From Sphingobium amiense (GTDB taxonomy: Bacteria; Pseudomonadota; Alphaproteobacteria; Sphingomonadales; Sphingomonadaceae), in NCBI RefSeq assembly GCF_003967075.1, contig NZ_AP018665.1:1-64000 (forward strand): DNA of 64,000 nucleotides. Direction: 5' to 3'. The notes under the pieces were generated by a model. That model saw nothing but the letters and a program-made list of their open reading frames with translations. It ran no database searches and was not told where the DNA came from. Of this stretch, positions 37,748 to 60,576 are shown piece after piece (positions within the stretch are counted from its first letter, which is position 1; every line of letters starts with the position of its first letter). Made by a program: the position numbers and the translations under genes.

Positions 37748-37785
37748 GGGGGCGTTTGCGGGAGGGGGCGGAATCCTACGCTAAG
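37748..37785. repeat. 38-bp terminal inverted repeat of the first Tn3-family element
   Basis: Begins GGGGGCG and ends ACGCTAAG, matching the GGGG...TAAG form of Tn3-family ends. It overlaps the stop codon of the transposase gene. It lies only 23 bp from the DnaA box of the origin. The matching second end is missing. Confidence 0.8.
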
Positions 37786-39887
37786 GATTTGGGCCAGCGA
37801 TATTCCCCGGTTAGATTGATGTGTTCCCATCCCAACGGCGAGACGTGGGCGAGTAGATCAGGCGCGATATGGGTACCGCTGGCGGCCCGGGTATTGACGA
37901 CCTCGCCGAGCTTCATGGTGTTCCAGAATATGATGATGGCGGCGAGCAGGTTCATTCCGGCGATGCGATAGTGCTGGCCTTCGCCGGATCGATCCCGGAT
38001 TTCACCTCGGCGGTGGAAGCTGATGGCGCGCTTTAGGGCGTGGTGGGCCTCACCCTTGTTGAGGCCGATCTGAGCCTGGCGCTGGAGGCCGGCATCAAGA
38101 ATCCAGTCGATCATGAACAGGGTTCGCTCGATGCGGCCCACCTCTCGCAATGCGAGGGCCAGCTCATTCTGGCGCGGGTAAGAGGCGAGCTTGCGAAGAA
38201 TCTGGCTGGGGGCGACGATCCCCGCTGCGATCGTCGCCATGATGCGCAGGATGTCGGGCCAGTTGCGCTCGATGAGCGGTTCATTGATCTTACCTCCGAC
38301 CAGCGCTCGCACATTGGCCGGCGTCGCGTTGGGCGTGAAGGCATAGAGTCTTTTCTGAGGGAGATCGCGGATACGGGGGGCGAACCTGTAGCCGAGCAAG
38401 GCGCAGGCGGCGAACACATGATCGGTGAAGCCGCCCGTGTCGGCAAAATGCTGGCGAACGCGGCGGCCCGCGTCATTCATGAGCAGCCCGTCCAGGATAT
38501 AGGGAGCCTCGCTGACCGTTGCCGGGATCACCTGGGTTGCGAACGGCGCATATTGATCGGACACATGGCTGTATCCCTTGAGGCCCGGGACGTTGCCATA
38601 TTTCGCGTTGATCAGATTCATCGCCTCGCCCTGCTCGGTAGCAAGGAAGAACTGCCCGTCGCTGGATGCCGATTGCCCTTGTCCCCAGAAGGCGGCCATG
38701 GGCAGGGCGGCGTGGGCCTCCACGATCATGGCGAGCGCCCGATCATAGGCGCTGCCTTCGACATGCCAGCGCGCGATCCGCAGCAATTCCCAGAAGCTGT
38801 GCGTGTTGGTCGCCGCCGCCATCTTGCGCAAACCGAGATTGACGCCTTCCGCCAGCAACACGTTCATCAGGCCGATCCGGTCGCTGCAGGGCGCGCCGGT
38901 GCGCAGATGCGTGAACGCCTCGGAAAATCCGGTTCGCTCATCGACTTCCAGCAACAGATCGGTGATCCTCGCGGGCGGGAGCTGTTGATAGAGATCGAGC
39001 ACGAGATCCTCGGCCCCTTCGGGCGTGTCGGCCCTCAGCTTGTCGATGTGCAGCTTGCCGTTCTCGATGATGCCGCCTGGGATCGTGCCGGTTCGCGCCG
39101 CGCGGCCAAACTCCTTCAGCCGTGTATCCAGTCGAGCCCTGCGCTCGGCCAGCCATTCGCCGGGTCGCAGCGGCACGGCGAGCCGCGCGGTCTGCTCTAT
39201 CGCCTGTGGCGGGACCAGAAGCTGCTTGAGGTCGCCATAGCGGCGCGATCCCGCCAACCATATGTCACCGGACCGGAAGGCGTCGCGGATGTGGAACAGC
39301 ACCGCGATTTCCCAAAGCCGGTGGTCGCCGCTGGGCTCAGCGCGAAGATGACGATGCCATTTCGAGTTGGGACGTAGAAAATCCACCGGCGGATCGACCT
39401 TGATCCCGTTACGCAGCATCGCAACGGCCGCCAGAAGAGGCGTGGCGATCGGCGCCGCCTGCATGTCGAGCAGGCGCAGCATCCTGGGCGCGTAGAGGCG
39501 GAAACGGTGATAGCCGTCCAGCACACGGCTGAGCGGGTCGGCCGCGAGCACGTTGGTCAGCGCGGAGGCCGTGGCGACAAGGGTTCTGAACCGTTCCCAG
39601 CCAGGCCCGGTGGCGATTATCCCGTCCAGGGCCGTGCCATCGTCCTGCGCTCCAAGCAAAGCACCACCGATTTCGGCAAAGGACTTCAGCGTGTCCCGAA
39701 CGGCCGCCTTTTCGTCGGCGATCCTGGTGTTGCAAAGGCGTTCGGAGGCCCGATAGAGACGGCCTACGATGCGATCGTGGGTCTCCACGATGACATCGGC
39801 CAGCGATGACCGCCATTCCAGGGTGCAGACAGCGAGGATCGCAAGCCGCCTGTCTTCGGGCAGATCACGCATGCCGTCGGCGTAATA
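37776..39887 (-). pseudogene. tnpA: Tn3-family transposase TnpA, N-terminus removed by another transposon
   Basis: About 700 C-terminal residues of a Tn3 transposase; a full protein has about 1000. The DDE-core context is visible (ASSDGQFFLATEQGEAM; HVSDQYAPFATQV; FWNTMKLGEVVN). The frame reads AYYADGMRDLPEDRRLAI at the break, which is internal sequence in Tn3 TnpA, so the N-terminal part was lost when the second element arrived at 39888. Probably inactive. Confidence 0.88.
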
Positions 39888-40009
39888 GGCCCAGTCGGCC
39901 CGAAGCTGCGATTTTGGTCATCTTGGAGAACACGTCGGGAACGGGCTGGTTGTTGTTGACGATCGCCCATGCGAGGAACGACGTTCCGCTCCGATAAGGG
40001 AGCGGCGTT

Positions 40010-42919: not shown

Positions 42920-42949
42920 CCGGGGCCTTTCCGCTCGCACCATTTGGGT

Positions 42950-43060
42950 GCACCCGAACGTGACGATCGGAAGTGACATATACGACATGTCACAAAAGGG
43001 TGGTTCCGTCACCAATGTTACTGTACGAGGGCAAAGCCACCCTAATGTGACGGATTTGCC
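42950..43060. promoter_or_regulatory. Candidate res site and resolvase promoter
   Basis: Between tnpA and the resolvase. Contains GTGACAT-N7-ATGTCAC (42973-42993) and CCGTCAC ... GTGACGG (43006-43053), inverted repeats sharing the GTGAC half-site. This is the arrangement expected for resolvase-binding subsites that also overlap the resolvase promoter. Confidence 0.6.
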
Positions 43061-43061
43061 C

Positions 43062-43928
43062 ATGACCCGCGTCGGCTACGCCCGCGTCAGCACCATCGAC
43101 CAGGATCTCGACATCCAGGTTGCCCGGTTGAAGGCAGCGGGCTGTGAAATCCTCCGCTCCGAAACAGGCTCGGGCGCATCGCGCACTGGACGCACGGAGC
43201 TTGAGACGATCATGCAGTTCCTGCGCGCCGATGACGAACTCGTCGTCCTGCGTCTCGATCGGCTCGGTCGCTCCACACGCGATGTTCTCAATCTGGTTCA
43301 TGAACTCGACCAGAAGGGAGCCTCATTGCGGGTGCTTGAGCCGGAGGTGACGACGGCCGGAAGCATGGGGCGGATGGTGATCACCATTCTGGGCATGGTC
43401 GCGGACATGGAACTGACGTTCATCAAGGACCGGCAGCGCGCCGGGATCGAGGCGGCGCGCGCCGAAGGCGTCTACAAAGGCCGGAAGAAAAACATCGATG
43501 ACGATGAAATCCGACGCCGGATCACCGCCGGCGCGAGCAAGGCCAGCGTCGCGCGCGACCTCAAGATCTCAAGAATGACCGTCTATCGGGCGCTTGACGT
43601 CATTCCTTCAAGGATCGGGCTGCCGGAAAAGCCGCCTTCTGTCACCATCGCCCTGCATCTGACCATCGAGAACTTCAACAAGCATGGTCGTGGCAGAAAG
43701 CCCGCTCGCGAGCGCATTGAGGCGATGCTGGAGCGGGATTACCAGATGCAAAAGACCGGGAACTGCGATTACACGCTGACCGTCGCCTATGATCAGGGTG
43801 CCGATGGCGTCAGCCTCGATGATGAGATCGCATCTCTCCAGACAGAGATGTTCAACATCGCAGAGAGCTACAGGTGCTCGATCGAGACCGATGTTTACGA
43901 GATTGGAGGACAAGAGCGAGCCTGGTAG
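43062..43928 (+). CDS. tnpR: Serine resolvase/invertase with C-terminal extension (288 aa)
   Basis: N-terminal resolvase catalytic domain with the active Ser in GYARVST, the R-x-x-R around LRLDRLGRSTRDV, and the HTH (SKASVARDLKISRMTVYRAL). Normal resolvases end near residue 190. Here about 90 further residues follow (TIENFNKHGRGRKPARERIE, then TLTVAYDQGADG, ending near ETDVYEIGG), which I do not recognise. ATG at 43062 is chosen because it begins exactly at the catalytic domain; the frame from 42900 would add a res-site-encoded leader. Confidence 0.88.
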   Translation: MTRVGYARVSTIDQDLDIQVARLKAAGCEILRSETGSGASRTGRTELETIMQFLRADDELVVLRLDRLGRSTRDVLNLVHELDQKGASLRVLEPEVTTAGSMGRMVITILGMVADMELTFIKDRQRAGIEAARAEGVYKGRKKNIDDDEIRRRITAGASKASVARDLKISRMTVYRALDVIPSRIGLPEKPPSVTIALHLTIENFNKHGRGRKPARERIEAMLERDYQMQKTGNCDYTLTVAYDQGADGVSLDDEIASLQTEMFNIAESYRCSIETDVYEIGGQERAW

Positions 43929-43991
43929 ATCGCCATGTTCAATCTTTGTTCTTCAACATGGCCAAAATCGCAGCTTCGGGCCGACTGGGCC

Positions 43992-44094
43992 AATCAACAC
44001 GGCGATCCTGGCGCCGTTCGAAGGCAATGTCGGCATCGGTTTCGCGGTTCCCGCGTCGGTGGTCCGGGACGTCCTGCGGCAAGCGCGCTCCTGA
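43992..44094 (+). pseudogene. HtrA/DegP-like protease fragment
   Basis: A short frame reading INTAILAPFEGNVGIGFAVP, then ASVVRDVLRQA and a stop. This matches the end of the trypsin-like domain of HtrA proteases (INTAI ... GIGFAIP). The rest was removed at the Tn3 right end. Confidence 0.7.
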
Positions 44095-44426: not shown

Positions 44427-44437
44427 CTATGCGGGAT
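44421..44437. terminator. Hairpin at the end of the hybrid histidine kinase
   Basis: ATCCCGC-TAT-GCGGGAT, 7-bp arms overlapping the kinase stop codon, with no clear T-run after it. Possible factor-dependent terminator. Confidence 0.4.
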
Positions 44438-47400
44438 CACTCTTCGCTGGGTCGAGGGAGATCGCCGACACCACACGGCGCAGATCCTCCTGACTGTAAG
44501 GCTTGAGCAGGATTGCGGCATCGGGAAATTCGGTGGATGAAATGCCGCTGCCATCGCCGCTGGCGAAAATGATCGCTGGCGCGGGGACACGCGCCTTGAC
44601 GGTCCTGGCAAGGTCGATGCCGGACGCCTTGGGCAAGCCGACATCGGTCAGGACAAGGTCGACCTCGTTTTGCCCCAGCAGCGCTTCGGCAGCTTCGGCG
44701 TCCTCGGCTTCCAGGACGGCATGGCCAAGATCGGCGAGCATGTCCGCGGTGTTGAAGCGGATCAGTCCGTCGTCTTCGACAAGGAGGATACGGAGGGTGC
44801 GGGCCTCCCGCACGGGCTGGGACGCCGGCGAGGGCGATGGCTCCGGTGCGTTTCCGCCGCCCTTCGCGATCAATCGGTGCTGTGCTTCGTTGGCCAGCAC
44901 GTGGCGGACTTTGCGGGCAAGCGCTTCGCGCGTGTAGGGCTTGGAAAGAAGCTCGACCCCCGGATCGAGCCGGCCATGATGCACGATCGCGTTCTCAGTA
45001 TAGCCCGAGGTGAAGAGCACCGCGAGGTTCGGCAGCCGTTCCTTCGCTCGGCGCGCAAGTTCGGGACTACGCAGCGGGCCGGGCATGACGACGTCAGTGA
45101 AGAGAAGATCCATCGGCACGCCACTCTCGATGACGGTGAGCGCGCTTTGCGCGTCGCGCGCCTTCAGCACCCGGTATCCAAGTTCGGACAGCAGGCAGAC
45201 GGCGGTCTCGCGGACGGCATCGTCGTCCTCCACCACGAGGACCGTCTCGGAGCCGCCCCGCACCGGTCCCGTGCTCGTATCGGTGAGTATGTCTTCCCGG
45301 GCAGTCTCGCGGCGCAGGTAGAGCTTGATTGTCGTGCCCTCACCCACCTCGCTGTAGATCTTGATATGGCCACCCGACTGCTTGACGAGGCCATGGACCA
45401 TTGAAAGACCAAGCCCCGTCCCCTTGCCTTCCGGCTTGGTACTGAAAAATGGTTCGAAGACCTGGTCGATGATTTCCGGCGCCATGCCTGTGCCGGTATC
45501 AGTAACGGCCACCATCACATATTGCCCGGCGGTGACTTCGTCGTGCTGGCGGGCATAGTCATCATCGAGCCAGGCGTTGGCCGCCTCGATCGTCAGGCGG
45601 CCGCCATCCGGCATGGCATCTCGCGCATTGATCGCCAGATTGAGGATGGCGTTTTCGATCTGACCCGGATCCACGAGGCAGTTCCACAATCCGCCGCTCA
45701 CGATGGTCTCGATCTCGACATCCTCGCCGATGACCCGGCGCAGGAGATCGTCCATATTGTTGATGAGGCGGCCCAAATTGACCACCTTGGGCTCGAGCGG
45801 TTGTCTGCGGCCGAAGGCGAGGAGCTGCGAGGCGAGCTTCGCGCCGCGCGAGACGCCTGCCAACGCATTCTGCACACGCTGCTCGGCGCGCTCATTTCCT
45901 GCAATGTCGCGCGACAGCAGCTGGAGGTTTCCGCTCACCACCTGCAGCAGATTGTTGAAATCATGTGCAACGCCGCCCGTCAGCTTGCCGAGCGCTTCGA
46001 GCTTCTGCGACTGGCGCAGCGCCGCTTCGGCAGCCTCGCGGTCCAGCGTTTCGCGCTGCAGCCGGCCAAGGGCCGTGCCGAGTTCTTCAGTGCGCTGCTC
46101 GACCCTGTGTTCGAGCGTCTCGTTGAGATTGTGGAGCTGGTCCTCCGCGCGCTTCTGATGCGTCACGTCGTAGCCGTCGACAAAGATGCCCGAGACACTG
46201 CCGTCCGGCTCGACGATCGGCTGATAGATGAGGTTCACGAAGCGGGTCTCGAGCGGCCCCTCCGGCGTGCGCTGGAGATGGGCTTCGAGATTGCGGCCCA
46301 CAAAGGGCTCGCCGGTCTGGTACACCCTGTCCAGCAGCTCGATGAAACCCTGCCCGGCTATTTCAGGAAGCCCGTCGCGAAGGGGCATGCCGACCACATC
46401 GCGATGGCCGACAAGTTGCTGATAGGCGTCGTTGACCATGTCGAAGACATGGTCAGGGCCCTTCAAGATGCACATGAAGCTCGGGGCTTGGCGGAAGAGC
46501 CGGCGAATGCGATCGCGCTCCTGCGTTCGCAGTTCCACCTCCGAGATCAGCTGGCGGTTCGCCTGTTCGAGGACGCGCGAGGCTTCCTCGCGCATCGTGG
46601 CGACTTCCGCCAGCGCCGCCGCGCGCTCACGTTCCGCTTCGAAGGCATAGCTGCTCGTCAGGCCTGCGGTGATCTGGCCGGCAAGCAATTCGAGGAAACT
46701 CAGATATTGCTCACCGGCGGGACGATATGGATTGAGGCCGACCACGAGGGCGCCCAGTGGCCGGTCGTTCCCGCGATCGACCAGGGGAACGACGGCGCTC
46801 TTGGTGGGCGGACGGTCCCAGGATCCGGTTGGGAGATCGGCGTGCGTCCATTCGTCGATTAGGGGAGCGGTCCAATCGAGCTGAACCCGCTTGACCCCCC
46901 AGGGACCTTCCGCCGCACCTGCTGCATGCGCGCAGGGGTGATCGGGATCCATCCCCGCGCAGTTGCGCGCCAGGACAGGGGCGCCCGTTTCGTCGAAAAG
47001 GTAGACAAGCGCAAAGGGCATGTCGCGATCGTTGCGCGCGAGCTCCGCCTCGACAGCGTCGAGCACGGCCTCATGCCCTTGGGCGCCTGCAAGGGCCAAC
47101 GCGAGCTGGCGCAGCGATTCCAGCCGCCGTTCGCTGATGACCCGGTCGGTCTCCTCACTGACCGCGCAAAACACGCCCTCGACCGTCCCCCGGTCGCCCA
47201 GGAGGGGGCTGTAGGAAAAGGTGTGATAGGTCTCCTCGGGATATCCCGCGCGCTCCAGGATGAGCAGAAGAGCGCGGTCCCAGGTCGCCTCGCCCTTCTG
47301 GTAGACCGTTTCGAGACGTCCTTTGATGTCGTCCCAGATCTCGGCCCACAGCTCGCGCGTCGGCATGGCAATAGAGCGCGGGTGTTTGTTGCCCAGTGTC

Positions 47401-47651
47401 GGCCGGTAGGCGTCGTTGTAGAAGAAATGGATGTCGGGCCCCCAACCGAGCCACATTTCGAATTTCGACGTCAGCAACAGGCGCAACGCGACCTTGAGCC
47501 CGTCGGGCCAGTGTTGCGGAGAACCAAGCGGCGTTGCGGTCCAATCATGGACACGCAGCAGCCGGGCCATCTCGCTGTCCCCCACAAATATGTCTTCATA
47601 GGTGTCAGGTATTTTTATGTTTTCGGTCAAGCGCGGCTCCAGACTGTTCAT
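44427..47651 (-). CDS. Hybrid sensor histidine kinase, PAS-GAF-PAS-HK-REC-REC (1074 aa)
   Basis: A PAS-like N-terminal domain (about 30-165, with HWPDGLKVALRLLL) is followed by a GAF-like domain (about 180-335) and a second PAS domain (about 395-510). HisKA with phospho-His H563 in GGVAHDFNNLL comes next. The HATPase domain has NLAINARDAMPDGGRL, the G1 box DTGTGMAPEI and GKGTGLGLSMVHGL. Two C-terminal receiver domains have LLFTDVVMPG and LVLTDVGLPK as phosphorylation regions. No transmembrane segment is evident, so it is probably cytoplasmic. It signals through a phosphorelay with an unidentified partner; light, redox or metabolite sensing by PAS/GAF is possible. Confidence 0.9.
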   Translation of the reverse strand: MNSLEPRLTENIKIPDTYEDIFVGDSEMARLLRVHDWTATPLGSPQHWPDGLKVALRLLLTSKFEMWLGWGPDIHFFYNDAYRPTLGNKHPRSIAMPTRELWAEIWDDIKGRLETVYQKGEATWDRALLLILERAGYPEETYHTFSYSPLLGDRGTVEGVFCAVSEETDRVISERRLESLRQLALALAGAQGHEAVLDAVEAELARNDRDMPFALVYLFDETGAPVLARNCAGMDPDHPCAHAAGAAEGPWGVKRVQLDWTAPLIDEWTHADLPTGSWDRPPTKSAVVPLVDRGNDRPLGALVVGLNPYRPAGEQYLSFLELLAGQITAGLTSSYAFEAERERAAALAEVATMREEASRVLEQANRQLISEVELRTQERDRIRRLFRQAPSFMCILKGPDHVFDMVNDAYQQLVGHRDVVGMPLRDGLPEIAGQGFIELLDRVYQTGEPFVGRNLEAHLQRTPEGPLETRFVNLIYQPIVEPDGSVSGIFVDGYDVTHQKRAEDQLHNLNETLEHRVEQRTEELGTALGRLQRETLDREAAEAALRQSQKLEALGKLTGGVAHDFNNLLQVVSGNLQLLSRDIAGNERAEQRVQNALAGVSRGAKLASQLLAFGRRQPLEPKVVNLGRLINNMDDLLRRVIGEDVEIETIVSGGLWNCLVDPGQIENAILNLAINARDAMPDGGRLTIEAANAWLDDDYARQHDEVTAGQYVMVAVTDTGTGMAPEIIDQVFEPFFSTKPEGKGTGLGLSMVHGLVKQSGGHIKIYSEVGEGTTIKLYLRRETAREDILTDTSTGPVRGGSETVLVVEDDDAVRETAVCLLSELGYRVLKARDAQSALTVIESGVPMDLLFTDVVMPGPLRSPELARRAKERLPNLAVLFTSGYTENAIVHHGRLDPGVELLSKPYTREALARKVRHVLANEAQHRLIAKGGGNAPEPSPSPASQPVREARTLRILLVEDDGLIRFNTADMLADLGHAVLEAEDAEAAEALLGQNEVDLVLTDVGLPKASGIDLARTVKARVPAPAIIFASGDGSGISSTEFPDAAILLKPYSQEDLRRVVSAISLDPAKSDPA

Positions 47652-47792
47652 ACGGAGTTACGCCCGGAAGGTCATGGTAGCCAGCAGCATCTTCGCAGCC
47701 TGCTCTCACGGTCGCTGTCTTACAGGCGCACGCCCGCCTCGCGCTCCATGATCATCGCGATGAAAGGCAAACTGATGCCGCCGGCTTTGCTT

Positions 47793-49349
47793 TCAATCTG
47801 GATGAGAAAGAGGCAACAATTCGTCGCGAAGGATGATCAGCGCGCACCGGCTCAGGTCCTCCGCGGCAGCAGCGGTCGTCGCCTCGGTGTAGCAGCGCAG
47901 TTCCGGCGCATTGCCCGACGCGCGCAGATGGATGACGACGCCGCGGTCGAATGTCACGCGCAGACCATCGGTGGTGTCGATCTCCACCACCTGGCCGCCA
48001 ATCGTACCGAAACAGGTTTCGATGCGCGCCCGTTGCTCCTCGGCTGATCCCTCCCTGAGCCAGCCCAGAAGCGCCGCGCTTTGCGCCGGAGCCACATCCG
48101 GGAGGCGGTCGCTATGGGTCGCGCGCTGCGGCAGGCTCGCGACCAGTTCCGCGACGCTGCTTCGCCTGGCGGCCGCGAGTACCGAAACGATCGGCAAGAC
48201 AGCGTCGCGCGTGGGAAGGGCATCCAGCGGATGGTCACCGTCGAGCACCGTCGAGCCGAGCAGGACGCTGCCATTGGCCTCATAACCGCAGACGATCGCG
48301 CCCGGGTCGGCCGCGATCTCCTCCTGCATGGCGGCGATCACATAGGGTGAACCGATCCGCGTCCGCCGAACCGCGACAAACGCGCCTGAAAGCTCGGCCG
48401 CGCTATTGCTGCTCACCGGGGTCACGACGCGGTCCGCGCCAAGCGCGCGAGCGCACAGCAGGGCGGTGATATCACCGCGAAGCCAAGTCCCCTGCGCGTC
48501 GGCGACGAGCGGCCGGTCCGAGTCCCCGTCCGTCGACACGATCGCATCGACCGTGTGGTCGTTCGCCCACGCGTGCGCCAGAATGATGTCCTCATCGCGA
48601 ATGGCTTCGGTGTCGACCGGCACAAAGCTTTCGGATCGGCCGAATGGCAGCACGATGGCGCCGAGCGCCTCGAGCACGCTCACCAGGACGTCCTGCCCCA
48701 CCGCGGAATGTTGGTAGACCCCGACTGTCACGCCCTTGAGTGCGTCCGCGCCGAAGAAGCCGACGTACCGATCGCGATAGGCGCTTGTGATCTCGACGGT
48801 CGGAGGCAGCGGTTCAGCGCTCAGGAGCGTGCCCGACGCATCGAAAAGGCTGTCGTCGGGTGAGACCCGCTGCTCGAGCATGCCGGCCTCGTCCGACTTG
48901 AGGACCTCGCCTGTCGGCCGGTAGAATTTGATCCCGTTACGATCAGCCGGAATATGGCTTCCCGTCACCATGATCGAGGGCATCTTGCGGCCCAGCGCGT
49001 AATAGGCCAGCGCCGGCGTCGGCACGAGCCCGCAGTTCACCAACACGCCGCCGGCGGCGCGGACCGCCGCCGCACAGGCCTGCACGATCCGCGGTGTGCT
49101 GGGACGCAGATCGCCGGCCAGCGCCACGGGCTGGCCCGGGGCAAACTCATCGATCGATCGCAAATACTGGAGGAATGCGCTGGTATAGGCAAAACAGAGC
49201 GCGTCGGTCATGGCCGAGACGGGTCCCCTGACGCCGCTCGTGCCAAAAGGAACACCGCTTTGCGCCATCAGGGTGCGCACGCTTTTGAGAGCGGCACCCT
49301 CGCTCGGCGGGGAGTCATCTACCTTCATGTCATTCGGCAATGCGTTCAT
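47793..49349 (-). CDS. manB: Phosphomannomutase (518 aa)
   Basis: Interconverts mannose-6-P and mannose-1-P. GTSGVRG at the start of the fold, the phosphoserine loop in MVTGSHIP, the metal-binding loop in STDGDSDRPL, and the sugar-binding loop GYEANGSVLLGS are all seen. Start at 49349 (MNALPND) is chosen because it overlaps the GH130 gene by 20 bp with GGAG upstream; a longer frame starts at 49376. Last gene of the mannose operon. Confidence 0.88.
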   Translation of the reverse strand: MNALPNDMKVDDSPPSEGAALKSVRTLMAQSGVPFGTSGVRGPVSAMTDALCFAYTSAFLQYLRSIDEFAPGQPVALAGDLRPSTPRIVQACAAAVRAAGGVLVNCGLVPTPALAYYALGRKMPSIMVTGSHIPADRNGIKFYRPTGEVLKSDEAGMLEQRVSPDDSLFDASGTLLSAEPLPPTVEITSAYRDRYVGFFGADALKGVTVGVYQHSAVGQDVLVSVLEALGAIVLPFGRSESFVPVDTEAIRDEDIILAHAWANDHTVDAIVSTDGDSDRPLVADAQGTWLRGDITALLCARALGADRVVTPVSSNSAAELSGAFVAVRRTRIGSPYVIAAMQEEIAADPGAIVCGYEANGSVLLGSTVLDGDHPLDALPTRDAVLPIVSVLAAARRSSVAELVASLPQRATHSDRLPDVAPAQSAALLGWLREGSAEEQRARIETCFGTIGGQVVEIDTTDGLRVTFDRGVVIHLRASGNAPELRCYTEATTAAAAEDLSRCALIILRDELLPLSHPD

Positions 49350-50679
49350 GGCCCCGCCACTCCAGTTCGTTGTCATTGAGCAAATCCATGCTGTCGGGCG
49401 CGCGCAGCGCGGCGAGCAGATCGGCTATCTCGATCCTGGCAAAGCTTACCGACGTATCGGCAACGCCATAGGGCATGAACAGCCTTCCGCCATGCGCGAT
49501 CGCCCCGCATGTATAGACGACATTAGGAACATAGCCTTCCCGGTCCTCATCGGAAGGCGACAGGAGTGGCACCGCCGAGCGGCCGATGACCCGCGAGGGA
49601 TCATCCTTGTCCAGCAGCACCGCGCCAATGGCATATTTGCGCATCGCGCCCACGCCGTGGGTGAGGACGAGCCAACCTTCCTCAAGCTCAATCGGCGCGC
49701 CGCAATTGCCCATCTGAACCAGTTCCCAAGGATAATGCGGTCCCAGAATCCGCTCGCCTTCCTCCCAGTGATGCAGATCGGGCGAGCGCAACAGGAACAG
49801 GCTTTCATTGTCCTGCCGGCCGATCATCAGATAATCGCCGCCGAACCGGCGGGGGAACAGAGCCATGCCCTTGTTCCGCGCCGCCGGACCCGTCAGCGTC
49901 TGCAATGCAAAGGTTTCGAAATCGCGGGTGACGAAAAGCTCCGAGGCGATCGCCGCGCCGCTATAGGCGGTATAGGTGCCGTAATAGCAGGTCGATGCGT
50001 CGTCATCGGTGAAGCGCACCAGGCGAAGATCCTCGAGCCCGTTGCGCTGGGCGGGCGTTGCGGGAAAGAGCACGGTCTCATCGAGCCGCATCCCCTCGAC
50101 GTGCCGAGTGAAGCGGACTTCACCGCCAGGCCCGGTCTCGGGCCGCGCGGCAATCGCGAAATCGGGTTCCGGCGCCATCTCGATCGTGCCGCACGGTAGG
50201 ATTAGGCCCTCGCGAAAGGTGATCGAGGAGATATGCCCCTCGCCTACCGCCCGCAGCGACAGGACGAAACGCAAGCCGCCCTCCGGTACGCCAGTCTGGT
50301 CAGGATGCGGCACGATGCTGGGGTTCATCACCGCCGCTGCGCCAAACGAATATTCATGGCAGAAATAGGCGCCGATCAACTGGCGAACCGAGGGCGATAG
50401 ACTGTCTGCCAGCTCCACCTCGCGCGCGACCTGCTCGAAGCGCTCTTCGAACACCCTGCGGATTTCGCGGTGGCGGTTCCCGAAATCGGCGAGGATGACG
50501 GCCAGTTCCCGGTCCACCGTCGCGCCCTCCATGGCGCGCACACCATTGATGATGCGATGCATGCGCTCATTCTGGACGGGGCTGAGATCGCGTGGTTCAG
50601 GCGCGATCTGCAAGGGCCGGACGACCACCCGCGCCGGGTTGGGCCGCAGCCGCAAGGGAATCGACTGGATCAGCGACAT
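49330..50679 (-). CDS. GH130-family glycosidase / mannoside phosphorylase-like (449 aa)
   Basis: Five-bladed propeller family that phosphorolyses beta-mannosides to mannose-1-P. Recognisable: AAAVMNPSIVPHPDQTG, GLEDLRLVRFTDD (the conserved Glu-Asp motif), MALFPRRFGGDYLMIGRQDN (with an Arg-Arg/Lys phosphate-binding pattern), and PYGVADTSVSFA at the end. ATG at 50679 is used since the upstream continuation shadows the glycosyltransferase gene. It overlaps both neighbours, so strong coupling. The linkage cleaved (beta-1,2 or beta-1,4) cannot be told from sequence. Confidence 0.83.
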   Translation of the reverse strand: MSLIQSIPLRLRPNPARVVVRPLQIAPEPRDLSPVQNERMHRIINGVRAMEGATVDRELAVILADFGNRHREIRRVFEERFEQVAREVELADSLSPSVRQLIGAYFCHEYSFGAAAVMNPSIVPHPDQTGVPEGGLRFVLSLRAVGEGHISSITFREGLILPCGTIEMAPEPDFAIAARPETGPGGEVRFTRHVEGMRLDETVLFPATPAQRNGLEDLRLVRFTDDDASTCYYGTYTAYSGAAIASELFVTRDFETFALQTLTGPAARNKGMALFPRRFGGDYLMIGRQDNESLFLLRSPDLHHWEEGERILGPHYPWELVQMGNCGAPIELEEGWLVLTHGVGAMRKYAIGAVLLDKDDPSRVIGRSAVPLLSPSDEDREGYVPNVVYTCGAIAHGGRLFMPYGVADTSVSFARIEIADLLAALRAPDSMDLLNDNELEWRGHERIAE

Positions 50680-52976
50680 GCAGCGACGCTCCCCTCCTCC
50701 TGTCCCTCTTCCCGGTTCTGCGACCCGTCGCTCCTGGCCCTCAGTCGGCGCACACCAAGCGCTGCAAACTGCCAGGCGAGAATGGATTCGGCGCCCTGGT
50801 TGAGGTTGACCCGATCGACCTGCAGGCCGTCGAAACAGCCGCCGTCGGGCAAGGCCAGTCGCAGACCCAGATCGTTGGCGCCCAGATACCAGGCATAGGC
50901 GGTCTCGACATGGGTGAGCCATTGGGCGTCGCCGGTCGTCTCGAACGCCAGGGCGCAAGCCTCGATCGTGGCCCAGGCTTCAAGCGGCTGCTGGTCGAAC
51001 GCCTGCGGCGTTTCATGGGGGAGCCCGAAGCTCTCTGTCCCGATCGGACGGAAATGGCCTTCCTTCGCGGTTTGGCGCTCGGCTAGCCACGCAAGCGCCT
51101 CGATCGCTTCATCGACCATATCGGGGCGCGCGAGCGCACGGCCCGCGCGCAGCAGCGCTTCGGGGAGGCGCGCATTGTCATAGGCCAGCACCGGCTCGAA
51201 CCAGATCCAGTCGTCCCGGCGATTGGCGCGCAGCAGTTCCAGCAGGCGGACCGAGAAGGTCTCCATCAGCAAACGGGCGGGACGATGGCCGGGATAGACC
51301 GCCAAGAACGCGGCAAGCCCGGAAGTCGCGAAAGCCTGGGCGCGCGGGCTCTGCAGAAAGCTGCTCGCCGGAATAACCTTGTCGGCGAGCGCCGTGGCCC
51401 AGAGCTTGAGACCATGGTCATCGGTTGCCTGCGCGGTCCGACCCAGCGCCCAGAGTCCGCGGCCGAAGCTGTCCTGCGACCCTTCCGTCTCGAGCCAGTC
51501 CCGATCATAGCCCATGAAGTTGCGGAAGCGGCCCGCATCCTCGTCCCAGGCGAAATCGACAAAGGACGCGTAGATGTTGGCAAGGCGTGCTGCGCGCGGC
51601 GTATCCAGCCCTTCCAGGGCAAATTCGCTTGCGAGCATCAGCGCCCGGGCATTATCGTCCAGACAATAGCCGTGTCGGCGGTCCGGCACCTTGGAGCGGC
51701 TATGCTGCAGCATGCCGCAACCATCCGTCATGCGATCGATAGCATCGAGCGAAGGCTCTGGCGCCGGCGTGACGGACGGGCGCAAACCGACGAGCGTGGT
51801 CGCCAGGGGAGAGCCCAGCCGGGCCTGGGCGAAGAGCGACAGATAGCTGCCGCCGACCACCGGCCATGTCATGGCGCGCCCCGCCTGGTAGGCGCTACGC
51901 CGTAATTCGTCGCGGCGCCGACCGTCACCCAGCAGGTCGCCCACCGCCTTCGCCAGGGCGTCCGGCGAGGCGAAGGGAACCAGCACGCCGCATCCGTCGG
52001 ACAAAAGTTCCTGTGCGTGCCAGTAGGGCGTCGATACGACCGCCTTACCGAGCCCCACGCTGTAGGAGAGCGTGCCGCTCGTGATCTGCGCTTCGGTCAG
52101 ATAGGGAGTGACGTAGATGTCGCAGGCCGACAGCCAGGCTTGCAGGGTGTGCGTATCGACATATTCGTTGACGAAACGGACGTTGCGCTCGAGCCCGAGC
52201 GCGCTGACCTGCCGGGCAAGGTCCTCGCGATAGGCTTCGCCCTCGCGGGCCACCAGATGCGGATGGGTTGCGCCGAGCACCACATAGATGAGATCGGGAT
52301 GATCGCGCACCAGCTGCGGCAGCGCCGAGATCATCACCTCGATGCCCTTGTTGGGCGAGAGCAGGCCGAAGGTGAGCGCCACGCGCCGCCCGTCGAGCCC
52401 GAAGCGGTGCTTTTCGAAAGCCGGGTCGAGGAACGGCATATCGGGAATGCCATGGGGAATCACCACGATCTTGTTCGCCGGGACGCCCATGTCGCGGGCA
52501 AGGATGGTGCGACCCATCTCAGTCATGACGATGATCCGCGAGGAGGCCTGCGCCAGCGCGTCCATCACGCGTCGCTGGTCCGCCGTGGGATCGGTCAGCA
52601 CGGTGTGCAGCGTGGTCACGATCGGCGCACGCAGTCTGTCGACGAGGGAAAGGAGATGGTCGCCCGCCTCGCCCCCGAAGATCCCGAACTCGTGCTGAAG
52701 GCATACGATGTCGGGATTGAGCGCGTTAATATGCTCCGCCGCCGCAACATAGTCGGAGAGATTATCCTGCGCGATCTCATAGCCGACTTCGCGGGGATAA
52801 TCGTGATGCACGCCGGGGTCGTTGAGCGCGATCGTCGAGATGGTGAGATCCGGATCGCCGGCTTTCAGCGCGGCGTGCAGATCCGCCGTGAAAGTTGCTA
52901 TACCGCAGCGGCGCGGGGGGAAATTGCCGATGAGTGCGACATGGCGCACCGGCGGCGGCGTCAGATCGATAGTCAT
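50670..52976 (-). CDS. GT4-family glycosyltransferase with helical C-terminal domain (768 aa)
   Basis: Residues about 10-390 form a GT-B glycosyltransferase: GNFPPRRCGIATFTADL near the start, the TFGLLSPNKGIEVMI segment, and the nucleotide-sugar-binding region YLTEAQITSGTLSYSVGLGK. Residues about 420-768 form a helical region like an (alpha/alpha)6 barrel: MLQHSRSKVPDRRHGYCLDDN, DAGRFRNFMGYDRDW, SFGRGLWALG. Probably uses GDP-mannose supplied by manC. The C-terminal domain could bind or trim the product. Overlaps manA by 4 bp and GH130 by 10 bp. Confidence 0.84.
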   Translation of the reverse strand: MTIDLTPPPVRHVALIGNFPPRRCGIATFTADLHAALKAGDPDLTISTIALNDPGVHHDYPREVGYEIAQDNLSDYVAAAEHINALNPDIVCLQHEFGIFGGEAGDHLLSLVDRLRAPIVTTLHTVLTDPTADQRRVMDALAQASSRIIVMTEMGRTILARDMGVPANKIVVIPHGIPDMPFLDPAFEKHRFGLDGRRVALTFGLLSPNKGIEVMISALPQLVRDHPDLIYVVLGATHPHLVAREGEAYREDLARQVSALGLERNVRFVNEYVDTHTLQAWLSACDIYVTPYLTEAQITSGTLSYSVGLGKAVVSTPYWHAQELLSDGCGVLVPFASPDALAKAVGDLLGDGRRRDELRRSAYQAGRAMTWPVVGGSYLSLFAQARLGSPLATTLVGLRPSVTPAPEPSLDAIDRMTDGCGMLQHSRSKVPDRRHGYCLDDNARALMLASEFALEGLDTPRAARLANIYASFVDFAWDEDAGRFRNFMGYDRDWLETEGSQDSFGRGLWALGRTAQATDDHGLKLWATALADKVIPASSFLQSPRAQAFATSGLAAFLAVYPGHRPARLLMETFSVRLLELLRANRRDDWIWFEPVLAYDNARLPEALLRAGRALARPDMVDEAIEALAWLAERQTAKEGHFRPIGTESFGLPHETPQAFDQQPLEAWATIEACALAFETTGDAQWLTHVETAYAWYLGANDLGLRLALPDGGCFDGLQVDRVNLNQGAESILAWQFAALGVRRLRARSDGSQNREEGQEEGSVAACR

Positions 52977-53809
52977 GGCAACAGATCTCCTTCAGCAAGT
53001 GTGGACCGAGCGGAGCGGGGCTCGGCGAGAACGAGGCGGGCGGGCGTGTCGGCATGCAGCGCGACCGGTCCGTGCGTGAGCCAGCATTGGTTGGCCGCGA
53101 AGGGCCGGCCGGCTATCGTGCCCTCGCCCGACAGGACGGCCAGACAGGCGCGCTCGGGCACGAGGACGACCTGGCCGCCCGGGTTGAGGGCGAACTGCGA
53201 GAGAGCGAAGGGCGCGCCTGCGCCGGGCAAGGCTTCCACCGGCTCGACCTCGGTGCGCGCTTCGAACAGGGCCTGGGCGAGGTGAAGCTCGCGCGGTCGC
53301 CCATAATCGAAGAGGCGATAGGTCACATCGCTGTGCTCCTGGACCTCGAGGACGGTGAGGCCGGGCCCGAGCGCATGGATCGTCCCGGCTCTGATGTAGA
53401 AGCTGTCCCCTGCCCGCGGACGAATTCGCCGAAGCAGCGAGGGTAGCGTTCCGTCGCGGGCCGCTTGGGCGATCGCCTGACGCGAAGCGGGCGCCTCGAG
53501 CCCGAGATCGAGATAGGCGCCCGGGAGCGCCTCGGTGACATGCCACCATTCATGCTTGCGGCCGGGCCCCTGTGGATGGACCTGGACCGACAGCGGCTCG
53601 CTCGTCTGCAGCCATTTGATCGTCAGGCCCGCATCCGGCGCTTCGAAGATCATTTCGCCCAGCGGCTGCGCCTCGTCCGGCGCCGGCAGGCCGTCGCGCC
53701 GGCCCCAGGGCTTGGCGACATAGCGGGGCGTCAGCCTTTCCGCCCAGCCCCCGGCCTCGGGGGCGGTGTCGGCTGGCTCTTCGCGTTCCAGACAGGTTTC
53801 TATCAGCAT
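52973..53809 (-). CDS. manA: Class I mannose-6-phosphate isomerase (278 aa)
   Basis: Cupin-type zinc isomerase converting fructose-6-P and mannose-6-P. Zinc ligands visible in SVQVHPQ, KHEWWHV and GTIHALGPG. A GGAG ribosome-binding site fixes the start at 53809. Compact length suits the short type I enzymes. It supplies mannose-6-P to manB. Confidence 0.88.
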   Translation of the reverse strand: MLIETCLEREEPADTAPEAGGWAERLTPRYVAKPWGRRDGLPAPDEAQPLGEMIFEAPDAGLTIKWLQTSEPLSVQVHPQGPGRKHEWWHVTEALPGAYLDLGLEAPASRQAIAQAARDGTLPSLLRRIRPRAGDSFYIRAGTIHALGPGLTVLEVQEHSDVTYRLFDYGRPRELHLAQALFEARTEVEPVEALPGAGAPFALSQFALNPGGQVVLVPERACLAVLSGEGTIAGRPFAANQCWLTHGPVALHADTPARLVLAEPRSARSTLAEGDLLP

Positions 53810-53843
53810 CGATCGGTTCTCCCAGGGATGATGCGTTTGAGGG

Positions 53844-54920
53844 TCAGGATGCCGTGGCGGCCTCGCGGGTGGCGGAAGGGCTCTCCTGTCCGGCAAGGCG
53901 CCGAACGTCCTGCGAACGCCCGCGCGGCGCGATTAGCACCGTGTCGCCGGTGGCTACGACGATGAGGTCGGAAACGCCGATCGCGGCGATGCGTGGCCCG
54001 GTGCTCTTGAACAGGCAGTTCCGGCTGTCGAGCGCCTTTACCTCGCCCTCCGAGAGATTGTCGGCTTCGTCGCGGCTGCCAATCGCATGAAGCGCATCCC
54101 AGCTGCCCAGATCCGACCATCCCATCGCCGTCGGCACGACGGCGACACGCGCGGCTTTTTCCAGGACGGCGTAGTCAATCGAGTCCGCGGGAATGGCGGC
54201 AAAGGCGTCAGCGTCGGGATCGATGCGCCGGCCTTCCCGCGTTGCCGACGCCAGCGCGGCCTCGACAGCAGTCAGCATTGCCGGGGCATGCAGGCGCATG
54301 GCCTCGAGAAAGGCATCGGCGCGCAGGAGGAATATGCCGGCTTTCCAGCAGTGACCGCCTTCAGCGATCATCCGGGCAGCGCGGTCGCTATCGGGCTTCT
54401 CGACGAAGCGATCGACCTGATGAACGCCTTGGCAGATCGCTTCGCCGCAGCGGATGTAGCCATAGCCCGTCTCGGGATGGTCCGGCGTGATGCCGAAGGT
54501 GACGAGCCATCCGGCGGCCGCCTGCGGCGCCGCGCGTTCTATCGCGGCGGCGAAAGCTGGCACATCGGCGATGACATGATCGCTGGGCATAACAAGGAGC
54601 AGCGCGTCCGGACTGGGCGCCTCGAGCGCCGCCATCGCGATAGCAGGCGCCGTATTGCGACCGACGGGCTCGAAGATGAGCCGGGCGGGCATGCAGTGGA
54701 TGGCGCGCAATTGCTCGCCGAGCAGCGCGTCGTGACCGCGATTGGCGATCAGGATCGGTGCCTGGACAAGGCCTGCGGCGCGAGCACGCCGAACTGTCTG
54801 CTGGAGCAGGCTCTCCTCGCCGGCGAGCGCAATGAATTGCTTGGGGCTGGCCGCGGTCGAAATCGGCCAGAGGCGCGTACCGGACCCGCCGGACAGGATA
54901 ACAGGAATAATCGAGCGCAT
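53844..54920 (-). CDS. manC: Mannose-1-phosphate guanylyltransferase (358 aa)
   Basis: Makes GDP-mannose from mannose-1-P and GTP. Signature GGSGTRLWPIS at residues 8-18, VMPSDHVI and the FVEKPD motif. The length matches the single-domain type, without a fused isomerase. First gene of the mannose operon; the promoter must lie in 54921-55020. A gap of 34 bp separates it from manA. Confidence 0.9.
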   Translation of the reverse strand: MRSIIPVILSGGSGTRLWPISTAASPKQFIALAGEESLLQQTVRRARAAGLVQAPILIANRGHDALLGEQLRAIHCMPARLIFEPVGRNTAPAIAMAALEAPSPDALLLVMPSDHVIADVPAFAAAIERAAPQAAAGWLVTFGITPDHPETGYGYIRCGEAICQGVHQVDRFVEKPDSDRAARMIAEGGHCWKAGIFLLRADAFLEAMRLHAPAMLTAVEAALASATREGRRIDPDADAFAAIPADSIDYAVLEKAARVAVVPTAMGWSDLGSWDALHAIGSRDEADNLSEGEVKALDSRNCLFKSTGPRIAAIGVSDLIVVATGDTVLIAPRGRSQDVRRLAGQESPSATREAATAS

Positions 54921-55020
54921 ATCCGAGCCACTTTTCCTGGGCAGCACGCACGAGGAGGCTGCGCGCAATCCTGTAAGAAAGCCCGGAAATCCCTCTCGCT
55001 ATGCTGAATAATGATGAGGT

Positions 55021-55047
55021 GACAGGGCCGGCCGCGCCGGCCCTGTC
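55021..55047. terminator. Perfect 12-bp hairpin after groEL
   Basis: GACAGGGCCGGC-CGC-GCCGGCCCTGTC, 9 bp after the groEL stop on the minus strand. Strong stem but no T-run follows. It separates groEL from the manC promoter region (54921-55020). Confidence 0.65.
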
Positions 55048-55056
55048 GGTGGAGGA

Positions 55057-57044
<1,988 letters not shown>

Positions 57045-57159
57045 GGGCAAAGCCTCCGGTTGCAAAACAAGAATGATGATCCCCGCCGTTCATCGGAACG
57101 ACAGGTTCCCGGGAACTAAGAAGCTCAATTTGCCCCTTCAAGACCCTCATGAAAATTTT

Positions 57160-57186
57160 TTGGCACTCAATGGAACGGAGTGCCAA
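57160..57186. promoter_or_regulatory. CIRCE element (HrcA operator) upstream of groES
   Basis: TTGGCACTC-N9-GAGTGCCAA, a perfect inverted repeat with the canonical 9-bp spacer (consensus TTAGCACTC-N9-GAGTGCTAA), 115 bp upstream of groES. Indicates HrcA repression and heat induction. Confidence 0.9.
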
Positions 57187-57315
57187 TCGCGTCGATCTCA
57201 ATGGCTTAGAGATGAAAAAACGTCTTGACGCGACTCCGCATCGTACCAAAATCTGGAGGGTGCGGATGAGGATGTCCGCCACGAAAGACAGGAGCGACAG
57301 GAAAGGAGGCTGACT

Positions 57316-57552
57316 ATGTCGCAACCATTTTCCCGTTTTCTTCATCCCTTCGACGTCGCGCACCATCCTGATCTGGAGCCCGAGGTCAAACGCGCCATCC
57401 TGGCGTCGTGGGCATCGGACAGATCGGCCGTGCGCGACAAGCCAGCGCTGCGAAAGCCGCGCGGTGCCAAACGCGCCGTGCCGATCGACGAAGTGCTCGC
57501 GGCCATGCGCACGCTGGACGAGGGGGATTCAGGTCAAACCAGCTTGCAATGA
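57316..57552 (+). CDS. Small basic protein of unknown function (78 aa)
   Basis: Starts MSQPFSRFLHPFDVAHHPDL with AGGAGG just upstream, so it is very likely translated. Residues about 40-55 are rich in Lys/Arg/Pro/Ala (KPALRKPRGAKRAVP). Divergent from groES, and its stop overlaps the usg start by ATGA. No recognised domain. Confidence 0.65.
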   Translation: MSQPFSRFLHPFDVAHHPDLEPEVKRAILASWASDRSAVRDKPALRKPRGAKRAVPIDEVLAAMRTLDEGDSGQTSLQ

Positions 57553-57818
57553 GCGACCGCGGTTTTCTGGCGCAGCTGCAGGGCTACGGCATGACAACGG
57601 CGGAAATTCACTATTACCGCCCTGACGCGCCGTCACTCCTGCAGCTCTTTGTCTGGCAGGAATATGATCTCGCGCCCGACTTTCCAGTGTTGTTCGACTT
57701 CCTGGACCATTGGCGGCGCGAGATCACCGCCGCCCTGCATTCCGTGCGGATCGCCCATGAGCAGCTGATCCGACCCACCGAATGGAGCGCGGTCGACGGG
57801 ATACTCTCGATACGATGA
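57549..57818 (+). CDS. usg: Usg family protein (89 aa)
   Basis: The whole sequence matches the Usg pattern: LQGYGMTTAEIHYYRPDAP, LLQLFVWQEYDLAPDFP and LHSVRVAH-like LHSVRIAHEQLI. Usg lies downstream of trpF in some alphaproteobacteria; its function is unproven. ATGA overlaps at both ends place it in a three-gene operon. Confidence 0.85.
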   Translation: MSDRGFLAQLQGYGMTTAEIHYYRPDAPSLLQLFVWQEYDLAPDFPVLFDFLDHWRREITAALHSVRIAHEQLIRPTEWSAVDGILSIR

Positions 57819-58213
57819 AACAGGCGCTGATCCATAGGCTCAAGGGCCGGGGCAAGGGTGTCCGCCTCACCTTGCCCTTCGACGATATCATGGAGTTCGC
57901 GATTGCGTTGCTGACGGTTGGTCCCGAGGACCTGGAGGCGCTGGGCTGGACCTTCGCTGATCGCAAGCGCTTCCTGGATCATTTTCTTGCGTCCGGTCGG
58001 GCCGCGCAGGGCGTCGCTCCTGAGCATCTCGGGCAAAAATCCATCGAAATCGTGGTGCCGCGCAAGGATCTCGATCGCCTGCATCGATTTGCGGTACGCG
58101 AACTGCCCAAGGCGGCCAGCAATGCCGCCATGCTCGACCGGGTGATCCGCGCGCTCGATCAGGCCGCGCAGCGCCAGGATGCCGGCAAAAGGCGAACGCC
58201 CGGGAAATCCTGA
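57815..58213 (+). CDS. Hypothetical protein (132 aa)
   Basis: Overlaps usg by four bases. LTLPFDDIMEFAIALLTVGP and RKRFLDHFLASG suggest a helical soluble protein; the C-terminus is basic (RQDAGKRRTPGKS). I do not recognise a family. Coupled translation with usg suggests a joint role. Confidence 0.7.
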   Translation: MKQALIHRLKGRGKGVRLTLPFDDIMEFAIALLTVGPEDLEALGWTFADRKRFLDHFLASGRAAQGVAPEHLGQKSIEIVVPRKDLDRLHRFAVRELPKAASNAAMLDRVIRALDQAAQRQDAGKRRTPGKS

Positions 58214-58257
58214 CGACGTCGCCACTTCATTCACCATCCAATGAAAGGAGACATTCC

Positions 58258-58488
58258 ATGCGTTATCAGCTGTTTCGCGACGACGACCATAGCCAGCGGG
58301 TCGCTGAGAGCGATGAATTCCAAAGCGAGTTCAAAGCGACCGAATGGGCGCGCGCGTGGGTGAAAACCAACGGCGATCACGATCGCTACCGCTTCCAGCA
58401 GGTGGACGGCGGCCGGCCCATGCTCTTGCTGAAGACCGTTGCCGGACAATGGTATGTGATGCCGCTCGCCGAGCAGGTTGCGGCATAG
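58258..58488 (+). CDS. Hypothetical protein (76 aa)
   Basis: GAAAGGAG ribosome-binding sequence upstream. MRYQLFRDDDHSQRVAESDE, FKATEWARAWVKTNGDHDRY and a closing GGRPMLLLKTVAGQWYVMP suggest a small beta-rich domain. No assignment. Confidence 0.65.
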   Translation: MRYQLFRDDDHSQRVAESDEFQSEFKATEWARAWVKTNGDHDRYRFQQVDGGRPMLLLKTVAGQWYVMPLAEQVAA

Positions 58489-58613
58489 CCGATCTGGCCG
58501 GGTCCGCGCCCTTCCCCTCTCGCACCGGGCCTCGCCGTGGATTAGGCTTTCCAAGCGCCATGGTTCCCGGTGCGCCACAGCCACAGGCTCTTCTCGAGCC
58601 ACAAGCGGACGAC

Positions 58614-58940: not shown

Positions 58941-60576
58941 TCAGGGTCCGATGCCGATCCGCGCCAGGGCCTGCGTCAAATCGCCTTGCCGGAAGGATTT
59001 GGTCAGGCGCGCGAGATCGGGGTCGATGCTGTCTGAATCGGCGTAGCCCGAGATGATGAGCACCGGCATCGGCTGACGCGCGCGAAGCGCCCGCGCCAGT
59101 TCGGTCCCCGTCATGCCGGGCATCAGATGATCGGTCATCAGAAGATCTGGCGTGAGACCCTCGTCCACCAACCGCAGCGCGGCCGCGCCGCAATTGGCCT
59201 CGATCACGCGATAGCCCATTTCGGTGAGCATATCGGCGGTTATCGTGCGGATCAGGTCTTCGTCGTCGACGAGCAAGACCATTCCGATCTCCCGTCGCTC
59301 GGGTGCTTGGGTGTTCGATACCGGCGCCGTGCAAGGCTCTTGCGGCGCAAGCGGCAGCCACAAGTCGATGCAGGTGCCCGACCCCGGCTGGCTTTTGATG
59401 CCCATGTGTCCGCCGAGCTGGGCCGCCAGGCCATGGACCATCGACAAGCCGAGCCCCGTGCCTTTGCCAACGCCCTTGGTCGAGAAGAAGGGCTCGATTG
59501 CGCGCGCGAGGGTCTCCTCATCCATCCCGGTACCGGTGTCGGCGACCGAGAGCCGCACGCGCGGCGCTCCTGCCTCACCCCGCGCGTTCGCCTCGAAGGT
59601 CACGCCGAGGGTCAAGGTGCCGCCGCCTGGCATTGCGTCACGCGCGTTGACTGCGAGGTTCAGCAGCGCCATCTCGAGCTGGTTCGCATCCGCCAACGCG
59701 CGGGGCGTGGTTTCATCCACGTCGAGGCGGACCTCAATCTGCGGGCCTGCGGTGGTTTCGATGAGGTCGGCCATGCCCTGGACCAAAGCTGCGACGTCGA
59801 CGGCGACCGGCTTGAGCGGCTGCCTCCGGGCAAAAGCGAGCAGCCTCTGCACCAGCGTTTTTGCCCGTTCCGCGGAGGCGAGCGCTCCGGCAATCGTGGG
59901 CTTGGCGCGGTCATCGCCAATCCCCCGCCGCTCAAGCATGTCCAGGCCGCCGATGATGGGCGTCAGCAAATTGTTGAAGTCGTGCGCAACGCCCCCGGTC
60001 AGCGTTCCCATCGCTTCGAGCTTCTGGGCATGGCGCAGCTGTTCATGGGCCTGGTTGAGCGCCGCGGTTCGTTCGGCGACGCGGGCCTCCAAGGTCTCGT
60101 TAAGATCGCGCAGCCGTGCCTCGCTGATCTTGAGCGCTCGGGTGCTCTCCTCGGCTCGTTCGCGCGCCGCGACCAGATCCCGCTCATAGGATCTGCGATC
60201 GGTCGCATCGACGAGCATGACCCGCGTACCGACAGGTCGGCCCTCCACATCCACTCGCCGCCATTCCGTCAGGACCGGCAAGCGCCGGCCTTCAGCGCAT
60301 CTCAGATCAATGGCGACCTGCCGGACGACGCCCTCCCTGTGAAGAAGCGGCGACACATGGGTCTCGGAAAAAAATCCGACCGGCCGGCGTCAGCACATCC
60401 TGGATTTTCCGACCGACCACATCGGCTTTGCCGACTCCCAGCCATGACAATAGCGTCGCGTTGATCCTGACAACGCGCAGCCGGCTGTCGAGCGTCACAT
60501 AACCGCACGGGGCATGATCGTAGAGATCGTCGAGCGTTTCTTCGGGAGGCTGATCGTCGGGTGGCGGCTCGGACAC
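58941..60576 (-). pseudogene. PAS histidine kinase with C-terminal receiver, frameshifted in an A7 run
   Basis: GTG start at 60576 (MSEPPPDDQPPEETLDDLYD) leads into a PAS domain (CGYVTLDSRLRVVRINATLL). The frame then switches near 60367-60373, at seven A on the top strand. The rest (from about 60356: SPLLHREGVVRQVAIDLR) continues through HisKA with HDFNNLL, HATPase (NLAVNARDAMPGGG; GKGTGLGLSMVHGL) and a receiver domain (LLMTDHLMPG). One base fewer gives an uninterrupted protein of about 545 aa. It follows the RsbQ-like hydrolase gene by 10 bp in the same operon. Confidence 0.85.

Follow-up and report, generated by a model that had tools for sequence, protein, structure and literature searches.

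Why should a sphingomonad keep genes for GDP-mannose synthesis in one operon with a glycosyltransferase (GT) and a GH130 enzyme? The question is raised by manC-manA-GT-GH130-manB, five genes on the minus strand at 54920-47793 of a 64,000-nt stretch of Sphingobium amiense DNA (contig NZ_AP018665.1, positions 1 to 64,000), hereafter the window. The original prediction had placed five nearly contiguous genes here, and this layout was confirmed: in gene order, a 34-bp gap between manC and manA is followed by overlaps of 4, 10 and 20 bp, and an annotated copy, 100% identical over all 7128 bases, forms part of the Sphingobium yanoikuyae plasmid p-B-Sy, which is typed as conjugative.

We give an even chance to the view that the operon encodes a two-enzyme mannoside module, here plasmid-borne and equipped with its own GDP-mannose genes. 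ManA, ManB and ManC would convert fructose-6-phosphate to GDP-mannose, and the GT, a protein with a GT4-like half and a toroid-like half, would use a donor that is most likely GDP-mannose to make a soluble, cytosolic, mannose-containing product. Using phosphate, the GH130 enzyme would attack beta-1,2-linked mannose of this product, so that both enzymes would share one substrate, and the alpha-mannose-1-phosphate released could re-enter through ManC or ManB; alternatively, GH130 may run in reverse and add beta-mannose to the product. Such a product would probably serve as a stress protectant or reserve and not as an exported polysaccharide. What the analysis shows is the gene order and families, a conserved gene pair, the retained residues of GH130, an altered GT motif, and the plasmid and groESL setting; the activities, the direction of the GH130 reaction, a substrate common to both enzymes and the physiological role are inferred.

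The GT-GH130 pair is the conserved unit

The original prediction had called for a survey of co-occurrence. Strict profiles (E up to 1e-60) detected the GT in 6 of the 144 class genomes, and GH130 in exactly these six, the window's own genome among them (a coincidence with a chance of about 9e-11 if genomes were independent, which is not entirely true). The family sample gave the same picture: 78 of 199 genomes carried the GT and 77 carried GH130, all 77 nested within the 78, and the single GT-positive genome lacking GH130 held the toroid half only.

The two genes are also neighbours. GH130 lay directly downstream on the same strand in 78 of 79 full-length GT rows, a count from which 8 rows with a partial GT and 30 of the 110 GH130 rows were excluded. 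Among the best 80 named loci it was directly downstream in 71, or 72 with L053, where the start of the open reading frame (ORF) was miscalled; of the other eight, four had GH130 elsewhere in the locus, three had none in the stretch covered, and in one the contig ended 114 bp after the GT. By record title, these loci span several phyla, with Alphaproteobacteria, Verrucomicrobia, Spirosoma and relatives, a planctomycete, a cyanobacterium, acidobacteria, an anaerolinean, an ignavibacterium and Fimbriimonadales among them. The GT also occurs on Ilyobacter and Deinococcus plasmids, with no GH130 annotated in the Deinococcus stretch. Other recurring neighbours in the best 80 loci were only antisense ORFs, manA, and genes common to related Sphingomonas contigs. 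We conclude that the conserved unit is the GT-GH130 pair and not the five-gene order, which is rare.

Two further loci were observed. The large contig of this genome carries a second GT-GH130 pair (L088, G000:C1:1992000-2011000), with a divergent, short-type GH130 and an adjoining SDR gene. The record of Mycobacterium sp. KBS0706 (L042), an organism name that may be wrong, holds a pair sharing 49% identity with that of Alphaproteobacteria.

GH130 resembles beta-1,2-mannoside phosphorylases

The GH130 protein matches its family profile and has the five-bladed propeller, with an extra helical stretch at about residues 34-105; at least 8000 relatives were scored, and Foldseek comparisons were read for GH130 and GT4 matches. 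It carries E216, D217, K270, R288, H341 and D408, residues of the beta-1,2-mannoside phosphorylase type. D217 and D408, which correspond in the alignment to Asp92 and Asp281 of Teth514_1788, are kept in 73 of 74 sequences, with one gap. The catalytic Asp and the -1 subsite residues (Asn, Asp, Asp), as named in the Teth514_1788 report (PMC4264767), are all present, N119 (73/74) being assigned by position. Phosphorylases of the family are told from hydrolases by basic phosphate-binding residues where hydrolases have carboxylates; K270, R288 and H341, candidates for these residues, are invariant and aligned with basic residues in a comparison made up of phosphorylases. K270 falls on the lysine of the NK pair in Lin0857, Teth514_1788 and Teth514_1789; TM1225, of the beta-1,4 type, has Arg there. 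We infer that K270 is the equivalent of Lys199 of BT3780, a lysine tied to beta-1,2-mannoside specificity (PMC4599007). Its nearest structures and retained residues suggest a beta-1,2-mannoside phosphorylase, an enzyme that probably uses phosphate to split beta-linked mannose.

Known relatives are similar only in part. Lin0857 and Teth514_1788/1789, which are beta-1,2-mannobiose or oligomannan phosphorylases, share about 29-30% identity with the operon enzyme, which differs by its extra N-terminal helical stretch and its obligate-looking GT partner. For Uhgb_MS (PDB 9eqq, 9erg and 9erh), a mixed-linkage mannoside synthase from a gut metagenome, we know of no GT partner. The Leishmania MTP enzymes of mannogen metabolism (GT108) gave no match in sequence searches; the Leishmania propeller itself uses GDP-mannose, whereas the operon has a separate GT.

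The placement of GH130 beside GDP-mannose synthesis and a GT4 is already known from Thermoanaerobacter, so the logic has a precedent. In cluster Teth514_1785-1796, described as a salvage route, two GH130s of the beta-1,2 type are accompanied by an ABC transporter, a mannose-1-phosphate guanylyltransferase and a GT4 (PMC4264767), and neither those GH130s nor the operon enzyme has an apparent signal peptide. By analogy, the operon GT could serve a surface glycan or lipid while GH130 recovers mannose from imported beta-manno-oligosaccharides. ABC-like transport ORFs upstream of the pair at one locus in Ignavibacteria (L055), seen by sequence inspection only, would suit this proposal. However, the Thermoanaerobacter cluster as there described has an ABC importer, no manA or manB, and GH130s of a different length, whereas the operon lacks an importer and pairs a single long GH130, which has extra helices, with a GT of altered motif fused to a toroid. 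Neither the five genes nor the matching 20-kb block of p-B-Sy, as annotated in PLSDB gene tables that are incomplete, contains an importer, export or undecaprenyl-type gene, and the one-to-one coupling of GT and GH130 is tighter than salvage requires. We regard a salvage or envelope role as quite unlikely.

Plasmid pILYOP02 of Ilyobacter polytropus (L143) was found to carry a canonical GT4, a short GH130, a long GH130 and a toroid GT, nearly the enzymes of the Thermoanaerobacter cluster, again with no importer.

The GT joins a GT4-like half to a toroid-like half

Residues about 7-389 of the GT match GT4 family profiles and adopt a GT-B fold, and their best sequence matches are to GTs that use GDP-mannose or other nucleotide sugars (PimA, E 4.5e-11). 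Residues about 406-751 form an alpha-helical, toroid-like domain, a fold match that rests on the AlphaFold2 model of the full-length GT (mean pLDDT 83.0, pTM 0.54). This half matched no Pfam family even at E up to 5, no NCBIfam family in more than 1 of 36 members, and nothing better than E 0.28 when searched alone against PDB sequences. Only a profile of it reached PDB 7tem (YPO2471), a stand-alone exported protein of unknown function, whereas the toroid-like half is fused within the GT; YPO2471 was not named in any paper found in the open-licence PMC literature. We think that the likely task of the toroid-like half is to bind or trim the sugar product. In one relative (G293) the two halves are encoded by separate, divergent genes beside GH130, which supports a functional link between them.

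Separate genes for the GT4-like and toroid halves near GH130 genes were seen in four genomes: G293 (contig C2, L135), G296, G288 and G181.

Weighing the module

Several findings weigh against the module, beginning with the GT itself. Both glutamates of E-x7-E, the hallmark motif of GT4, are absent from all 82 GT sequences. The motif reads Q-I-T-S-G-T-L-x-Y instead (Q297-x7-Y305, with Q297 in 82/82 and Y305 in 81/82, W in one), and Y305 falls on the second Glu when the protein is aligned with PimA by HMMER. Where the usual G-R pair has its Arg, L205 stands in 82/82, with K210 retained. These changes, together with the fused toroid-like domain, set the protein apart from PimA-type GDP-mannose-dependent GT4 enzymes. 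We therefore call it GT4-like, and without the glutamates even GT activity and the donor are uncertain.

The same substitutions raise the idea that the GT4-like half is a retaining phosphorylase or sugar-1-phosphate enzyme, which with GH130 and the toroid half would interconvert mannosides through mannose-1-phosphate. The uniformity of Q-x7-Y would agree with this, as would the set in Ilyobacter, where the canonical GT4 keeps E-x7-E (EPFGLSVVE) while the adjoining toroid GT has the Q form; the SGT of the motif may also resemble a loop of glycogen phosphorylase. Yet the best relatives of this half are nucleotide-sugar GTs, and manC in the same operon points to GDP-mannose. We consider a pair of phosphorylases very unlikely.

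A second difficulty is chemical. To our knowledge, the GT4 enzymes known so far are retaining and give alpha-mannosides, whereas GH130 uses beta-mannosides, so that one bond shared by both would be awkward. Either the GT is atypical, or an alpha-linked primer is extended by GH130, or there is no shared bond. The closed mannose cycle of the original prediction is affected accordingly: its GDP-mannose genes and its GH130 of beta-1,2-phosphorylase type stood, while its closure ran into the alpha/beta conflict and a GT lacking E-x7-E. In the strict version of that cycle, the GT would polymerise GDP-mannose into a cytosolic beta-mannan that GH130 phosphorolyses, making a bacterial mannogen cycle. 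The complete GDP-mannose gene set, the type of the GH130 and a synthase-phosphorylase pairing that resembles glycogen metabolism and is conserved across genomes all speak for it, and with a non-canonical motif retention need not be assumed. Nothing, however, points to an inverting beta-mannosyltransferase or to a polymer, and GH130 itself could form the beta bond from mannose-1-phosphate. The strict cycle seems to us unlikely.

The alpha/beta conflict would be resolved if the GT made an alpha-mannoside, as a primer or small solute, to which GH130 added or from which it removed beta-1,2-mannose by way of mannose-1-phosphate. Uhgb_MS, among the nearest structures, makes beta-mannosyl bonds on alpha-1,2-mannobiose-type acceptors from mannose-1-phosphate (PMC8950772), and in Leishmania extracts octyl alpha-mannoside acts as a primer from which beta-1,2-mannan is synthesised (PMC3290622). 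However, the high phosphate and low mannose-1-phosphate of cells usually favour phosphorolysis, and no acceptor is known. This scheme, too, we rate as unlikely.

Gene context adds further reservations about the two-enzyme module that we favour. Most sampled GT-GH130 pairs have no adjoining man gene: among the best 80 named loci, manA lay just upstream of the pair in 13 and manC in 2, and none of the other loci had manA, manB and manC together next to it. Evidence for a stress role is thin. On p-B-Sy the neighbours of the operon include rpoH, two Hsp20 genes, a cation:proton antiporter, groEL and groES, and the Sphingomonas paucimobilis plasmid copy adjoins grpE, dnaK, a J-domain gene, a universal stress protein, Dps and clpB. 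Beside the operon in the window, the heat-shock genes of p-B-Sy are absent except groESL; the Hsp20 genes of the plasmid contig in this genome lie about 70 kb away. In 3 of 77 genomes (G152, G195 and G322, read by eye) a GT had an Hsp20 gene no more than 10 kb away, a weak signal against a chance expectation of about 0.7 (a rough hand estimate from 127 Hsp20 matches in the 77 genomes), and in G293 the distance was 13 kb. GroEL was found in the flanks of 5 of the best 80 loci, a raw count. EcfG-type stress-sigma promoters upstream of the GT were not enriched (3/80 loci, against a background expectation of about 1.9 from the loci themselves), and a scan with the RpoH-type consensus gave no strict promoter before manC and four loose matches in 47000-58500, none of them before manC. 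The plasmid and groESL setting is compatible with a stress role but no proof of one, and a role as protectant or reserve is plausible.

A wider claim is more tentative, and we hold it possible rather than likely: that many phyla share a previously undescribed intracellular mannoside system, in which a Q-x7-Y GT4-like/toroid enzyme is strictly coupled to a long beta-1,2-mannoside phosphorylase to make, and recycle by phosphorolysis, a reserve or protectant containing beta-1,2-mannose, as a bacterial counterpart of mannogen, with a self-sufficient version on conjugative sphingomonad plasmids beside chaperone genes. In the open-licence PMC literature (subscription papers and preprints lay outside the search) we found no paper, among those listed, on the GT-GH130 pair in sphingomonads or on a bacterial mannogen, and our searches gave no description of a strict pairing of GT-toroid with GH130, of the altered motif, of how widely the pair occurs or of its self-sufficient plasmid version. 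If true, the claim would explain physiologically what a large and uncharacterised part of GH130, usually read as degraders of plant or yeast mannan, is for; it would also reveal, alongside glycogen and trehalose, another economy of storage or protectant sugars, one that moves on plasmids. The role of a GT4-like enzyme without its two glutamates would become a directly testable question. Should the pair act on an exported glycan instead, thousands of environmental bacteria would still have mannan-degradation annotations in need of correction.

The operon, its plasmids and its surroundings

Features of the operon and the adjoining genes are collected in Table 1. Four of the five assignments have Pfam support; the exception, manA, has no Pfam match at E 0.01 and only a partial, below cut-off match to TIGR00218 (E 9.9e-15), and its product is named class I mannose-6-phosphate isomerase in matching plasmid records, including NZ_CP053023.1. 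ManC combines the Pfam NTP_transferase and ManC beta-helix domains and covers only positions 1-344 of 467 of TIGR01479, a model of the bifunctional enzyme, which is the guanylyltransferase part. Since it lacks the isomerase part, a separate manA makes sense and completes the route from fructose-6-phosphate to GDP-mannose. For manA, GH130 and manB, the program-called ORF starts precede the likely ATGs. A second manC, 59% identical, lies elsewhere in the genome (C1:3213634-3214662) with a manB paralogue adjoining it (L089), which suggests that the operon's GDP-mannose gene set is dedicated.

Table 1. Genes and other features of the mannose operon and the adjoining groESL region
Feature	Position in window	Strand	Evidence
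manC, mannose-1-phosphate guanylyltransferase, 358 aa, without C-terminal isomerase domain	53844..54920	-	PF00483 (E 6.1e-50), PF22640
manA, class I mannose-6-phosphate isomerase, 278 aa	52973..53809	-	partial TIGR00218; plasmid-record name
Two-domain GT, 768 aa	50670..52976	-	Pfam GT4-type domains in first half only
GH130, 449 aa	49330..50679	-	Pfam Glyco_hydro_130
manB, phosphomannomutase/phosphoglucomutase family, 518 aa	47793..49349	-	PF02878, PF02879, PF02880, PF00408 (PGM_PMM I-IV)
groEL, immediately upstream of manC	55057..56676	-	GroEL family matches; groL annotated in matching plasmid block
groES	about 56730-57044	-	annotated in matching plasmid block
Strong 12-bp hairpin between groEL and manC, no T run after it	55015..55047 (approximate limits)	-	RNA fold -34.3 kcal/mol, z -4.12

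The five-gene operon was found on four sphingomonad plasmids, p-B-Sy and three others with 95.2-96.8% identity over 7128 bases; the same annotated order in all four records shows that it is not a chance reading of ORFs. Six further plasmids carry manC-GT-GH130 at about 70% identity, without manA and manB. From 43992 to its end (20009 bp) the window matches p-B-Sy at 99.94%, and to the left of 43992 it differs. A p-B-Sy protease gene spans this border, indicating that the stress island has been rearranged in the window. Two Tn3-family transposases and a recombinase occupy 37779-43992, ending exactly where the p-B-Sy match starts.

The hairpin between groEL and manC may be a terminator, an attenuator or an mRNA end; a sigma-70 promoter and terminator scan around manC returned nothing on the minus strand and did not list it. 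Upstream of groES, at 57160-57186, lies a perfect inverted repeat, TTGGCACTC-N9-GAGTGCCAA, of CIRCE type, with this one match in the window and none in 100 shuffles. Finally, two hybrid histidine kinase genes (44427-47651 and 58941-60356) flank the groESL-mannose block, and a regulatory link to it is possible.

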